Virus record (IMG/VR): IMGVR_UViG_3300017917_001009
Coordinates: 1-20,951 of that record
Strand: one strand, 5' to 3'
Source of the DNA: a virus
DNA length: 20,951 bases
Part shown: in pieces, positions 709-20,951 of the stretch
How positions within the stretch are numbered: the first letter of the stretch is position 1
Layout: each line of letters opens with the position of its first letter
Notes under the pieces: generated by a model
What the model saw: the letters and a program-made list of their open reading frames with translations, nothing else
What the model was told of the DNA's origin: nothing
Database searches by the model: none
Program-made: the position numbers and the translations under genes

Positions 709-726
709 CAATTTGATAAAATTGTT
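707..726. repeat. A+T-rich perfect inverted repeat at portal stop codon
   Basis: The arms AACAATTT (707-714) and AAATTGTT (719-726) are perfectly complementary around a GATA spacer. The repeat starts inside the portal stop codon and abuts a TATAAT sequence. It could be an operator, or a weak RNA hairpin separating portal from protease translation. The lack of G+C and of a following T-run argues against an efficient terminator. Confidence 0.5.
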
Positions 727-739
727 GGTATAATATAAT
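726..739 (+). promoter_or_regulatory. Extended -10-like promoter element before the protease gene
   Basis: TGGTATAAT lies at 726-734, a full TGnTATAAT match. A second overlapping TATAAT lies at 734-739. TTGATA at 713-718 resembles a -35 but is only 15 bases from the second TATAAT, which is shorter than usual. If the first box is used, transcription would start near 741, just downstream of the annotated ATG (738). That would favour a leaderless start at the in-frame ATG at 744. The promoter activity is inferred from sequence. Confidence 0.45.
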
Positions 740-2057
740 GAGTATGAATATTTCTAAAGCACAATGGATGCACGAAGGAAATAATTTAAAACTTTCCATG
801 CCCATTGCAAAGGTGGATAAAGAGCGAAGAATGGTTTCAGGATTCGCTACTTTAGATAATATTGATCGTCAAGGAGACATTGTTCCAGCAGAGGCGAGCA
901 TCAAAGCCTTTGAAAAATTCCGTGGAAACATCAGAGAGATGCATGATGATAAGAAGGCTGTTGGAAAACTAATCTCATTTAAAGAAGATTCTTTTTATGA
1001 TCAAGAAACTGGAAAAATATATAAGGGCGTGTTTGTATCTGCATATGTAAGCAAGGGCGCTCAGGACACTTGGGAAAAGGTTCTTGATGGAACCCTAACT
1101 GGATTTTCAATCGGTGGCAGCGTAAATGATTATGAAGACACATATAACGAAGAAATGGATAAGTCAATAAGAATCATCAAAGATTATGACTTGTATGAAC
1201 TTTCTTTAGTAGACAGTCCTGCCAATCAATACGCAAATGTCATTAGCATTGAAAAGGGTCATACTGGAGGGTATTTATCAAAAGCCCTCATTGAAAACGT
1301 ATTCTGGTGCAGCACGGACGATGTTGTCCAACTATCTGCTAATAGCACATCAGACTGCCCAAGATGCGACAAGAGTATGAATAATATTGGTTTCGTAGAA
1401 ACTAACGACGCACAAAAGGCAGAAGTAGTAAAGTCTATTCTTTCTACTGTCAAAAATGATGTAAAGGAGGTAAGCAAGATGGATAACGAAACAATTGAGA
1501 CAGCCTCCACAGAAGCAGTATCAGAAGATACAGAAAATGTAGAAAAGACAATTTCAGAAAGTGATGAAACTGTAGAGAAGGCAGTCGAAGAAAACGATGT
1601 AGAGAAGGCAGAATCAACAGAGGAAGTTGATAAGGCTGTCGCCCCTGGACCAACTGCGGCCATGGAAGAAGAAGATGAAGAAATGGATGACTCAGAAGAT
1701 GATGTTGCAGAACTTACTGCAAAGAAGTCTGTAGAGGAAACCATCAACTCTGAACTAATAGAAGCAACAAAGGCTGTTGCAGAACAGATGAACTCTACTG
1801 TCAACATGCTTGCTGACACCATTAAGAATCTTAATGAGAAAGTAGAAGAACTCAACAAGACTGTTTCTGGTGTTAAGGGAGAGGTTGATTCATTTAAGAA
1901 TGAGTTTGGAAAGCGTGTAGATGCTGTGGAAAAGGATACCGCTTTCCGTAAGTCTGGCGATCTTGGCGAGGTCGTTCAGGAGCCACTAGTTAAGGCTCAA
2001 GTACAAAAATCACTATGGGGCGGCCGTTTCCTCTCAAAGTCCGACCTATTTACATGA
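738..2057 (+). CDS. Prohead protease fused to C-terminal scaffold (XkdF / HK97 gp4-like)
   Basis: This 439-residue protein would mature the capsid by cleaving scaffold and/or capsid protein inside the prohead. Residues about 15-172 look like the herpesvirus/HK97-type prohead protease fold. Candidate catalytic residues are His69 (REMHDD), Ser124 (LTGFSIGG) and Glu154 in YELSLVDSPAN, the motif that usually closes the domain. A short cysteine-containing segment (His175, Cys191, Cys207, Cys210) follows. Residues about 245-330 are very acidic (Glu/Asp-rich), about 335-400 are predicted coiled coil, and the tail has SLWGGRFLSKSDLF. The last 192 residues have their own internal start. There is no convincing Shine-Dalgarno before the ATG at 738, and the in-frame ATG at 744 is the alternative start. 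The gene sits between portal and capsid, as expected for the family. Confidence 0.88.
   Translation: MSMNISKAQWMHEGNNLKLSMPIAKVDKERRMVSGFATLDNIDRQGDIVPAEASIKAFEKFRGNIREMHDDKKAVGKLISFKEDSFYDQETGKIYKGVFVSAYVSKGAQDTWEKVLDGTLTGFSIGGSVNDYEDTYNEEMDKSIRIIKDYDLYELSLVDSPANQYANVISIEKGHTGGYLSKALIENVFWCSTDDVVQLSANSTSDCPRCDKSMNNIGFVETNDAQKAEVVKSILSTVKNDVKEVSKMDNETIETASTEAVSEDTENVEKTISESDETVEKAVEENDVEKAESTEEVDKAVAPGPTAAMEEEDEEMDDSEDDVAELTAKKSVEETINSELIEATKAVAEQMNSTVNMLADTIKNLNEKVEELNKTVSGVKGEVDSFKNEFGKRVDAVEKDTAFRKSGDLGEVVQEPLVKAQVQKSLWGGRFLSKSDLFT
1463..1481 (+). promoter_or_regulatory. Internal ribosome binding site and start codon inside the protease gene
   Basis: AAAGGAGGT at 1463-1471 is a near-ideal Shine-Dalgarno. 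It lies seven bases before an ATG at 1479-1481 that is in frame with the protease gene. It is stronger than the sites of most full genes in the window, including the protease's own start. Confidence 0.75.
1479..2057 (+). CDS. Nested capsid scaffolding protein (internal in-frame start)
   Basis: This frame gives a 192-residue protein identical to protease residues 248-439. It begins MDNETIETAST. The start is supported by the strong Shine-Dalgarno 1463-1471 and by its exact placement at the boundary between the enzymatic part and the acidic/coiled-coil part. The product would be acidic in its first half (a cluster of Glu and Asp around residues 60-85), then a heptad-like helix, then a short hydrophobic/basic end that could contact the capsid protein. 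Scaffolding proteins are typically acidic, helical and needed in many copies per prohead. Making them from an internal start of the protease gene is known for lambda C/Nu3 and similar systems. The existence of the shorter product is inferred, not shown. Confidence 0.68.
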   Translation: MDNETIETASTEAVSEDTENVEKTISESDETVEKAVEENDVEKAESTEEVDKAVAPGPTAAMEEEDEEMDDSEDDVAELTAKKSVEETINSELIEATKAVAEQMNSTVNMLADTIKNLNEKVEELNKTVSGVKGEVDSFKNEFGKRVDAVEKDTAFRKSGDLGEVVQEPLVKAQVQKSLWGGRFLSKSDLFT

Positions 2058-2086: not shown

Positions 2087-3229
2087 ATGTCTGAAGAAAT
2101 TTTAAAGAACCAACCAAGCAGCGATACTTCAGGATGGGATCCAGCACCAGCAGCGGCTGACGGCTTGTTCCAAGGTGAAGGTGCATTTGCTGCTGGTGGC
2201 GTTGGTAACGTAGTTGATCCAGCCGCTGGCGTACTTGGCAATATCCCAAACGCCAACTATGGAGACACAACAGGTCCAAACGCTGTTAACCCAACAGGTG
2301 TTGCTTCAGGTCTACTCAATCCTGAGCAGGCTCGTCGCTTCATCGATTATGTTTGGGATGCCACAGTTCTCGCTAACGATGGCCGTCGTGTAACCATGCG
2401 TGCAAACACTATGGAAATCGAAAAGGTTAACGTTGGAGAACGTGTTATTCGTGCGGCAGCACAGGCTCTAGGCTCATACGAGAATGCTGGAGCGACCTTC
2501 ACAAAGGTTGAACTCACAACAAAGAAGATTCGCCTTGACTGGGAAGTTTCAACAGAATCATTGGAAGATAACATCGAAGGTGGTGCCCTTGAGGATCATC
2601 TCGTTCGTTTGATGACCAATGCTTTTGCCAATGATATCGAAGACTTGGCAATCAATGGTGATGGTGGTGCCGATCCATTCCTTGGAATCATGGATGGATT
2701 TGTTAATCAGGTTACAACAACTGGTGACGCTCATGAGGCAGTAGTTACTGTTTCTGACAATCAGTGGACACCAGAAGTAATGCAGCAGATCATCTACGCC
2801 CTACCACGCAAGTACCGTGCAGTTAAGAGCAATCTTAAGTTCTACGCTGGCACAGATGCTTTCGCTGGTATTGTTGCTAACAATGGTACACTTGCTGATG
2901 CTATTGCAGCAGCATTTGATCCACGCATTGCTGGCACAGAGCGTAACCGTCAGGCCTACCTTGACGGTGCAGGACAGACATTTGGCAATGCCAATGTTAC
3001 CCGCGTTCTAGGTGTAGACGTTCTAGAAGTTCCTTACTACCCTGCTGATTATGTCGATTTGACATTCCCCAGCAACCGTGTATGGGGCTTCCAGCGCGAT
3101 ATCACTGTTAACCGTGAATACAAGGCCAAGAAGGACACAATCGAATACACCGTATTCGTTCGTTTTGGCATCGCTTGGGAAGAACTTGATGCAGTTGCTT
3201 ATGCAGATGCAGCAGTAGATCCTTCCTGA
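2087..3229 (+). CDS. Major capsid protein (HK97 fold)
   Basis: This 380-residue protein would form the icosahedral shell. The first ~70 residues are Gly/Ala/Pro/Asn-rich and probably flexible; part may be removed by the protease. From about residue 75 (GLLNPEQARRFIDYVWD) the sequence looks like the HK97 fold. An N-arm/E-loop-like strand region covers about 100-150, followed by WEVSTESLEDNIEGG, an ED.AINGDGG segment near residue 185-195 and PFLGIMDGF, all features common in phage capsid proteins. C-terminal strands end with TVFVRFGIAWEELDAVAY. All 19 arginine codons are CGT or CGC, unlike the AGA-rich tail genes, and the gene ends in tandem stops TGA TAA. Both point to selection for very high expression. 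It lies directly behind the protease/scaffold gene. Confidence 0.95.
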   Translation: MSEEILKNQPSSDTSGWDPAPAAADGLFQGEGAFAAGGVGNVVDPAAGVLGNIPNANYGDTTGPNAVNPTGVASGLLNPEQARRFIDYVWDATVLANDGRRVTMRANTMEIEKVNVGERVIRAAAQALGSYENAGATFTKVELTTKKIRLDWEVSTESLEDNIEGGALEDHLVRLMTNAFANDIEDLAINGDGGADPFLGIMDGFVNQVTTTGDAHEAVVTVSDNQWTPEVMQQIIYALPRKYRAVKSNLKFYAGTDAFAGIVANNGTLADAIAAAFDPRIAGTERNRQAYLDGAGQTFGNANVTRVLGVDVLEVPYYPADYVDLTFPSNRVWGFQRDITVNREYKAKKDTIEYTVFVRFGIAWEELDAVAYADAAVDPS

Positions 3230-3320: not shown

Positions 3321-3779
3321 ATGGATTTTTCAAAGATGACTGTTTCAGATCTTAAATCATATGCAGAAGAAAGCGGTATTGATCTAGGAACAGCGAAAAC
3401 AAAAACAGCAATTTTATCTGTTTTAACAAATACAAAGTCAAATATTTCAGGGGAGACAGAGACAACAGAAAACGTCATTGGTTCTAATAAAATTAATAAT
3501 GAAAAAAGAATCCCAGTATCCAATACAAGAACAAATAGCGATGGCGTTCTTACTGTAGGCTCAGCAGATACTTTTAAGAATAAAGAATTTAAGAAGAATA
3601 ACGAGAAGCCAGAAAACAAGATAGCAATTTATTCAGAAAAAAATATAAGGTGGCAAGGCCTTGGTGGTCTAAGTAAAGGATACAATATCGTTACAGAGGA
3701 GGCAGCCGAAAAGTGGTTAACCCTTAAGGGTATTCGTGAGGCTACAGCACAAGAAGTAGCAAACCATTACGGCCTATAG
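3321..3779 (+). CDS. Small structural-region protein with SAP/HeH-like N-terminus
   Basis: This 152-residue protein has three parts. Residues 1-33 (MTVSDLKSYAEESGIDLG followed by Lys/Thr and AILSVL) look like a helix-extended-loop-helix or SAP/Rho-N-type fold: a short helix, a turn with Ile-Asp, and a Lys-rich second helix. Residues about 35-105 are a polar Asn/Lys/Thr-rich linker. The C-terminal ~50 residues (KNIRWQGLGGLSKGYNIV, then EEAAEKWLTLKGIREAT and a final NHYGL) look like a compact alpha/beta module. The ATG at 3321 is chosen because AGGAAAGGA lies ten bases upstream; an upstream TTG at 3294 overlaps the promoter-like box. Small HeH-containing proteins are often found between capsid and connector genes, where their role is unclear (head decoration or neck). 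I do not assign a function. Confidence 0.8.
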   Translation: MDFSKMTVSDLKSYAEESGIDLGTAKTKTAILSVLTNTKSNISGETETTENVIGSNKINNEKRIPVSNTRTNSDGVLTVGSADTFKNKEFKKNNEKPENKIAIYSEKNIRWQGLGGLSKGYNIVTEEAAEKWLTLKGIREATAQEVANHYGL

Positions 3780-7161: not shown

Positions 7162-7183
7162 GCCCCGCTTCGGCGGGGCTTTT
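7162..7183 (+). terminator. Intrinsic terminator with UUCG tetraloop after the tail tube gene
   Basis: GCCCCGC (7162-7168) and GCGGGGC (7173-7179) form a perfect 7-bp stem closed by C-UUCG-G, the very stable tetraloop. It is followed by TTTT at 7180-7183. This is the clearest factor-independent terminator in the window. The T-run is short, so read-through to the chaperone and tape measure genes is likely. A promoter-like box follows four bases later. Confidence 0.88.
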
Positions 7184-7187
7184 GTCA

Positions 7188-7196
7188 TGCTATAAT
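7188..7196 (+). promoter_or_regulatory. Extended -10 promoter-like element before the chaperone gene
   Basis: TGCTATAAT is a perfect TGnTATAAT, followed by TATTA as in the box before the tail tube gene. The predicted start near 7203 gives a leader of about 20 bases with AAGGA at 7211-7215, six bases from the ATG at 7222. Any -35 would lie inside the terminator stem and does not match a consensus. Confidence 0.5.
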
Positions 7197-7221: not shown

Positions 7222-7557
7222 ATGGCTACAAGTGTATATGAAGTAACAGAGATCGAACTTTTGGACGGCACAAAGATCAAGATGCGTCCACTAAAGATTT
7301 CTTTGCTTAGAGAGTTTATGAAGACATTTGAGGGTATTGCCAAGGTAGCAGATAACAATGATAAGTCAATGGACATTCTTATGGATTGTGTTCAAATTGC
7401 TATGAAGCAGTATTCTCCAGAACTTGCACTAGATCGTGAAAAACTAGAAGATAACATTGATCTGCCAAGTGTTTATAAGGTCGTTGAAGCAGCCTCTGGA
7501 ATTAAGTTTGATGATCAGGGAAACGCAGCGGCGACGGGGATTCGTGGTCTGAACTAG
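7222..7557 (+). CDS. Tail assembly chaperone, short form (lambda gpG-like)
   Basis: The unshifted product is 111 residues. It starts with a strand-rich part (VYEVTEIELLDGTKIKMRPL), then helices (ISLLREFMKTFEGIA and MDILMDCVQIAMKQYSP), and an end carrying LPSVYKVVEAASGIKF. This pattern is very common in the first member of the tail chaperone pair in siphoviruses. These proteins coat the tape measure and recruit tube subunits, and are not part of the mature tail. The start is set by AAGGA six bases upstream. It lies directly between the tube and tape measure genes, the universal place for this pair, and contains the slippery site near its end. Confidence 0.85.
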   Translation: MATSVYEVTEIELLDGTKIKMRPLKISLLREFMKTFEGIAKVADNNDKSMDILMDCVQIAMKQYSPELALDREKLEDNIDLPSVYKVVEAASGIKFDDQGNAAATGIRGLN

Positions 7558-7913
7558 ATCTTGCAAAAATAGAGTCAGAAGTATTTCTTTTAGGAATATG
7601 GAAAGACTATCAAGAACTAGAAGACAATCTCTGTATGCAAGAATTAACACAAATCCTCGTCGCTAAAAGAGAAAAAGAAAATGAGGAAAAAAGGTTTCTT
7701 GCTGCCCTCCAAGGGGTAGACATTGGCCAAGGAGCGGAAGATCCTCAAAAGAAGTGGGAAGATCTCAAGGCTAGGGCGTTCAGCGGCGGGAAAGCAAAAG
7801 ACTCAAGTGATATCACATCTCTAGTAGGAAATAATGCCAAACAAAAGGGTTTTGGTATAGGAAGAGGACTAGAGTATTCTGATGGAAATAAGGCTAAAAA
7901 TCCCTTTGGCTAG
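7222..7913 (+). CDS. Tail assembly chaperone, -1 frameshift fusion (lambda gpGT-like)
   Basis: Translation of 7222-7524 followed by a one-base backward slip continues from 7524 to the TAG at 7911-7913. This gives about 230 residues: 101 shared with the short form plus a 129-residue extension. The extension has SELDLAKIESEVFLLGIWKDYQ, a Lys/Glu-rich helix (VAKREKENEEKRF) and a flexible Gly/Lys-rich end. In this extension frame there are stops at 7509-7514, so it opens only just before the slippery site. Its first ATG (7635) lacks a ribosome site. Both facts support fusion over a separate gene. In lambda the equivalent T domain recruits tail tube protein. The shifted ratio cannot be read from the sequence. 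Confidence 0.82.
7518..7524 (+). promoter_or_regulatory. -1 ribosomal frameshift slippery site GGGAAAC
   Basis: In the reading phase of the gene starting at 7222 the bases are split G GGA AAC, which is exactly the X XXY YYZ heptamer for -1 slippage. Shifting there enters the frame that runs uninterrupted to 7913. The unshifted frame stops 30 bases later at 7555. No obvious strong stem follows within ten bases, though the stretch to 7540 is G+C-rich. Confidence 0.85.
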
Positions 7914-20706: not shown

Positions 20707-20951
20707 ATGCCATTGATATATGCTGGAGGACAGTGGAGATATGTTCCACCGTCTGCACAGGCTAATGCTGCAACGCCAAAGCCACCCCCCCCTCCTCCTC
20801 CACCTCCCCCTCCCCCACCTCCTCCTCCACGTTACGTTTCTGGAGAAGGGAGTATTATTGCTCAGGCTCCCCAACTTTATCGACCCCCGCCACCACCACC
20901 AGTTACTTTTAGGCCTCCAGATTATCCAGACCGTCCAATTCCTCCAGGACC
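20707..20951 (+). CDS. Proline-rich tail protein, N-terminal part (3' end outside window)
   Basis: An ATG at 20707, seven bases after GGAGGT (20694-20699), opens a frame that runs to the window end (81 residues visible). The N-terminus is MPLIYAGGQWRYVPPSAQ, then an Ala/Asn link. Next come 16 consecutive prolines (residues 26-41), a short ordered-looking stretch (RYVSGEGSIIAQAPQLY), six more prolines (60-65) and more Pro-rich sequence. Long proline runs form stiff polyproline-II rods. Following a hub gene, it could be a tail fibre or spike whose stalk is that rod. No receptor-binding or enzymatic domain is visible in the part present. Sixteen prolines in a row would need EF-P to be translated efficiently. 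Confidence 0.82.
   Translation, partial: MPLIYAGGQWRYVPPSAQANAATPKPPPPPPPPPPPPPPPPRYVSGEGSIIAQAPQLYRPPPPPPVTFRPPDYPDRPIPPG
20782..20829 (+). repeat. Polyproline codon tract (16 CCN codons), C-rich DNA
   Basis: Forty-eight bases encode only proline with all of CCT, CCA and CCC mixed, including C-runs of eight (20785-20792) and five (20806-20810, 20812-20816). Mixed codon use shows that the tract is not one simple trinucleotide repeat. The minus strand carries long G-runs and could form a quadruplex. Confidence 0.85.

Follow-up and report, generated by a model that had tools for sequence, protein, structure and literature searches.

Organization of the head gene locus

The window analyzed here is a 20,951-nucleotide stretch of viral DNA. 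Its plus strand carries an open reading frame (ORF) of 439 amino acids at positions 738 to 2057, flanked by a portal gene that ends at 708 and by the major capsid gene at 2087 to 3229 (plus strand). The long ORF matches the head maturation protease family PHROG 9427 (E = 1.5e-126). Possessing the S78 domain of HK97-type prohead proteases, it scores above the Pfam cut-offs for both PF04586 (31.0 bits, cut-off 21) and PF14550 (33.3 bits, cut-off 24), and the S78 match extends up to residue 171. A head maturation protease thus forms the N-terminal part of a product encoded beside portal and capsid genes, as in known nested protease/scaffold genes. These matches and an alignment of the upstream region support reading positions 738 to 2057 as a prohead protease with a C-terminal scaffold domain. 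The true start of this long form is probably ATG 744, which aligns with the start in relatives, rather than 738.

Within the long ORF lies a second candidate start. The ATG at 1479 to 1481 is codon 248 of the 738-2057 ORF and is in frame. It is preceded on the plus strand by the Shine-Dalgarno (SD) sequence AAAGGAGGT at 1463 to 1471, with 7 nucleotides between the final T and the ATG, the spacing reported by a first-pass annotation made from the sequence alone. The start shares the stop codon of the long ORF, an arrangement typical of nested protease/scaffold genes, and the resulting nested ORF (1479 to 2057, plus strand) encodes 192 amino acids with a mass of 21.0 kDa and a pI of 4.2. Its start conservation and composition suggest that it is a scaffolding protein.

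Other features of the window lie outside the head genes. An ORF at 7222 to 7557 overlaps a -1 frame that runs to 7913, just ahead of the tape-measure gene and near ACGGGGATTC; across 7222 to 7913 the arrangement is the one seen in tail assembly chaperone genes that use programmed frameshifting. A strong terminator-like hairpin, GCCCCGCTTCGGCGGGGC, is found at 7162 to 7196 and is directly followed by the extended -10 element TGCTATAAT. At 20707 to 20949, a gene begins that is cut by the window end and encodes about 16 consecutive prolines.

Domain layout of the two predicted products

The structure of the long form was modeled with AlphaFold2 using 64 sequences (mean pLDDT 64). The S78 protease domain comprises residues 9 to 158 (762 to 1211, plus strand; pLDDT about 72-93), in agreement with PF04586/PF14550. 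Past the catalytic domain, the alignment and the model reveal a conserved cysteine motif region at residues 185 to 221 (1290 to 1400, plus strand), which reads W-C191, C207-P-x-C210 and then NIGFVE. C191, C207 and C210 are possibly metal-binding. The phage NiceHouse is about 40 residues shorter ahead of the internal start and may lack this motif. A linker helix follows at residues 225 to 245. Order ends at about residue 246, and disorder is predicted from about 246 to 331.

The first-pass annotation placed the internal start exactly where the protease-like part ends. The ordered N-terminal half does end there; the catalytic match ends earlier, at residue 171. Since the cysteine motif region and the linker helix intervene, the start marks the end of the ordered half and not that of the catalytic domain.

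The short form contains no cysteine. Its N-terminal part (residues 248 to 331; 1479 to 1730, plus strand) is acidic and predicted to be disordered (pLDDT about 30), and residues 248 to 330 hold 32 Asp/Glu versus 6 Lys/Arg. A 71-residue helix at residues 332 to 402 (1731 to 1943, plus strand) is a predicted coiled coil, based on the model and on matches to generic coiled-coil profiles, and a short C-terminal helix occupies residues 434 to 438. The C-terminal motif WGGRFLxxxDLF (2016 to 2051, plus strand) is conserved in the alignment of 64 sequences, where W427, G429, F431, L432, D436 and L437 are invariant. Its conservation makes it a possible capsid-binding end of a scaffold. A structure search of the full model, much of which is disorder or coil, returned nothing below an E value of 0.001 in the PDB, and a profile search against PDB sequences matched generic coiled coils.

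Strength of the putative internal ribosome binding site

SD strength was calculated as the energy of duplex formation with the tail of the 16S rRNA. Among the 17 in-frame ATG, GTG and TTG codons scored in the long ORF, the internal site reaches -13.4 kcal/mol, compared to -6.5 for the next in-frame start and -2.9 for the annotated ORF start. Of the 16 window starts given a score, only that of the capsid gene (-15.2) is stronger, which bears out the earlier observation that the internal SD is better than the sites of most annotated genes. RNA folding around the internal start is also weaker than elsewhere in the ORF (-6.0 versus -10.3 kcal/mol).

Strength and rarity are not what identify the site. 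The window contains a single copy of AAAGGAGG, and about 0.9 copies are expected by chance in its 20,951 bases, so the case is carried by position and conservation. Synonymous shuffling produced an SD of equal strength in about 6% of shuffles per ORF; because of this per-ORF chance and the shared ancestry of the relatives, no combined probability is given. As a control, the same ranking was applied to two known nested genes. The annotated Nu3 start of lambda falls outside the top six of its gene, and the Z start of Mu ranks fourth. SD ranking alone is therefore insufficient as proof, and the argument depends on conservation.

Conservation of the internal start

Relatives were drawn from viral contigs, phage records and one Actinomycetota metagenome-assembled genome (MAG), with locus L156 left out. 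All 76 non-redundant ORFs, which come from environmental, Streptomyces and Rhodococcus phages, have their strongest in-frame SD/start at the internal site, and the same is true at 24 further loci. Every close relative examined retains the motif, the start codon and the spacing; the distance from GGAGG to the start is 8 nucleotides in 62 of 63 environmental ORFs. By these alignments, selection keeps the internal start signal in all close relatives checked. In the alignment of homologues proposed by the first-pass annotation, close relatives with the protease were checked for a missing internal SD or ATG. The outcome favored the nested start, both being retained in all of them, even in distant actinophages where the peptide is unrelated.

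The codons of the SD point to selection on the RNA. The SD of environmental relatives reads AAG GAG GNN. Lysine is encoded by AAG in 58 of 58 cases and glutamate by GAG in 53 of 53, whereas other conserved glutamate columns use GAG in 17-66%. The residue after the SD glutamate is V, E, D, A or G, and the codons for these are alike only in their first base, G. In the Streptomyces phages (Stanwilliamsviridae, 40-44% identical) and the Rhodococcus phages Trina and Weasels2, the SD is found in another codon phase, as GGA GGT, followed by ATG or GTG, and the peptides encoded there differ (EGGAEQ, EGGVI, EGGQSN). As judged from these codons, the internal signal is retained at the RNA level while the peptide changes.

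This pattern bears on two explanations in which no short form is initiated. The ORF could yield only the fusion, with the scaffold domain freed by self-cleavage, as in P2 gpO, and with an incidental SD-like sequence in its middle. P2 gpO does combine protease and scaffold in one gene, and the fusion ORF is open throughout; were the SD incidental, it would not be expected to stay paired with a start codon at an unvarying distance in 76 of 76 ORFs, or to persist where both codon phase and peptide have changed, and we regard a fusion-only product as improbable. Intragenic SD-like sequences can also slow ribosomes or promote slippage, and the internal SD could be a pause signal for domain folding or an SD-stimulated frameshift signal in place of a start site. 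Neither role requires a start codon, yet an ATG or GTG is retained at initiation distance even where the peptide is different. The frame is, moreover, open to its end with no conserved overlapping frame, which leaves a pause or frameshift role the least probable of the readings weighed here.

Several individual loci differ in the protease part while the internal site is intact. L024 has upstream frame breaks and ambiguous bases, and its internal SD and ATG are unaltered. L055 has an in-frame TAA at 3439 to 3441 in the protease part, either a genuine nonsense mutation or an error of sequencing, and its scaffold ORF, internal SD and ATG are intact. L026 is a partial sequence in which the internal site is present. 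In L025 (3001 to 4614) and L077 (3001 to 4539), about 80 residues are inserted in the linker right before the internal SD, and neither the SD nor the ATG is affected. NiceHouse has the weaker SD form GGAGAT (-8.7), and no relatives turned up when viral contigs were scanned with its protein.

The signal is confined to part of the protease family. Four remote relatives from Chloroflexi and Proteobacteria MAGs, whose proteases are 39-45% identical, have no internal start at a consistent place. These relatives retain the protease, a cluster of cysteines and a scaffold-like C-terminus, and three of the four have their best SD close to where the long ORF begins, the fourth being cut at its 5' end. 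The absence of the internal site in these relatives indicates that the nested start is a trait of an actinophage clade and not of all such proteases.

Initiation of the long form

The long form of the window begins without a good SD, as do its counterparts in most relatives. An extended -10 element, TGGTATAAT, is located at 726 to 734 (plus strand), 9 nucleotides ahead of ATG 744, and is a putative promoter. An exact TATAAT is found 8-10 nucleotides ahead of the conserved long-form ATG in 59 of 61 relatives, compared to 17 of 309 control ORF starts, and its spacing in the window fits ATG 744 better than 738. At the commonest TATAAT spacing, the predicted first transcribed base is a purine 3 nucleotides ahead of the ATG. 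Signals resembling a -10 element about 10 bp upstream have been interpreted as indicating leaderless genes, a class that accounts for more than one fifth of the genes in Actinobacteria (PMC3160421). The SD-less start with its TATAAT suggests a near-leaderless, weakly made protease alongside an abundant scaffold. The exact TATAAT-ATG spacing is absent from the Streptomyces relatives, in several of which the protease start overlaps the preceding gene. Ahead of the internal start, a promoter-like element is not enriched (18 of 63, below background).

Identity of the short form

Tailed-phage scaffolds usually display acidic disorder, a coiled coil and a conserved C-terminal motif. The head genes were also inspected for another source of scaffold. 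In HK97, this function belongs to the delta domain, a coiled N-terminal capsid extension of about 100 residues. By sequence, no such domain is found in the capsid protein of the window (2087 to 3229), whose N-terminus is rich in Gly, Ala and Pro and has 75 amino acids before the Pfam capsid match, versus 112 in HK97. The Streptomyces relatives have about 20 amino acids ahead of the conserved capsid motif EQxxxFIDY. No other scaffold candidate was found between the portal and capsid genes, the gene list of the StarPlatinum head region includes no scaffold gene, and literature searches turned up no scaffold described for Stanwilliamsviridae or for phages of the Trina/Weasels2 type.

A short form that is made and serves another purpose, such as a minor head protein or a protease decoy, is also to be considered. 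The function is assigned from layout and shape, and in Pfam and PHROG searches the short form matched no scaffold family. Against such a role, there is no other candidate between the portal and capsid genes and no coiled delta domain, and the acidic disorder, coiled coil and C-terminal motif are those typical of scaffolds, so that we hold a non-scaffold role to be unlikely. By elimination and shape, given the domain layout and given that neither another scaffold gene nor a coiled capsid delta domain was found, the short form is best read as the scaffold. The nested-scaffold reading of the first-pass annotation is thereby supported, and a 192-amino acid scaffold is very likely encoded at ATG 1479.

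Comparison with known protease/scaffold systems

The locus was first likened to lambda C/Nu3, and the likeness is one of layout. Like Nu3, the putative scaffold gene of the window occupies the 3' end of the protease gene in the same frame, shares its stop codon and sits beside head genes. Unlike the S78 protease of the window, lambda C is an S49 peptidase (E = 1.5e-44) and has its own strong SD (-12.4), whereas the long form here has none; in lambda, a decoration gene also separates C from the capsid gene. Descent from lambda C/Nu3 was rejected, the window protease being S78 and not S49 (SppA/ClpP-like). With a protease that is neither S49 nor of the Mu I family, the locus would work like lambda C/Nu3 without being a homologue of lambda C.

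In Mu I/Z and the Mu-like phage PaMx73, the scaffold is produced from an in-frame internal start that has an SD and lies within the protease gene (PMC4378225), as proposed for the window. Mu resembles the window, too, in having no good SD at the protease start (-1.9). Unlike in the window, the Z SD is only the fourth-best in its gene and the protease belongs to PF10123; Mu I matches this family (E = 2.3e-98) and the window protein does not, and descent from Mu I/Z was rejected as well. HK97 gp4 (225 amino acids) is, like the window protein, an S78 protease encoded directly ahead of the capsid gene. It differs in having no scaffold part, the HK97 scaffold being the capsid delta domain that is absent here. 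P2 gpO resembles the long form in uniting protease and scaffold in a single polypeptide, whose gene lies immediately ahead of the capsid gene. It belongs to PF05929, and unlike the window ORF it has no outstanding internal start between its parts, with one strong site at codon 281/284.

The herpesvirus UL26/UL26.5 genes encode a protease and a co-terminal scaffold, and the scaffold is also expressed alone in excess. The pair at this locus is similarly co-terminal. UL26.5 has its own transcript, unlike the short form here, ahead of which no promoter is enriched. Herpesvirus proteases gave only weak fold matches in the structure search (E about 0.5).

Model and significance

Taken as a whole, the analysis makes it highly probable that one ORF encodes two co-terminal proteins, a protease-scaffold fusion, probably from a near-leaderless start, and an SD-driven 192-amino acid scaffold that should be in excess. 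The long form, an S78 prohead protease with a C-terminal scaffold domain, would be translated from a near-leaderless transcript specified by the -10 element at 726 to 734. The short form, an acidic coiled-coil scaffolding protein, would initiate at ATG 1479 by means of AAAGGAGGT. The strong internal start would place the scaffold in large excess over the fusion, and the few fusion molecules would join the prohead by co-assembly through the common scaffold domain. The protease would later digest the scaffold, making room for DNA entry. The analysis itself establishes the sequence layout, the conservation of both signals and the domain prediction. We infer start use, scaffold role, protein ratio, promoter activity and digestion, with stoichiometry, assembly and cleavage drawn by analogy from lambda, Mu and HK97. 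That one transcript with two start modes, near-leaderless for the protease and SD-driven for the scaffold, sets the ratio of the two proteins as a trait of this clade of actinobacterial phages is, in our estimate, an evenly balanced proposition.

The nested frame with its start signal is real and well conserved, and is unannotated in the records read; its layout is already known from lambda and Mu. The expectation that annotation would miss it held, as none of the relatives' gene tables that were read lists a scaffold. The gene is matched by at least 127 Streptomyces and at least 9 Rhodococcus phage records, and those among the listed records that are annotated call it a capsid or head maturation protease. 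Giving the nested gene a name would fill the scaffold gap in the annotation of this phage group. It would also extend the nested protease/scaffold layout to a third protease family, S78, beside S49 and Mu I, and would make it possible to test directly whether the choice of start site sets head assembly stoichiometry.
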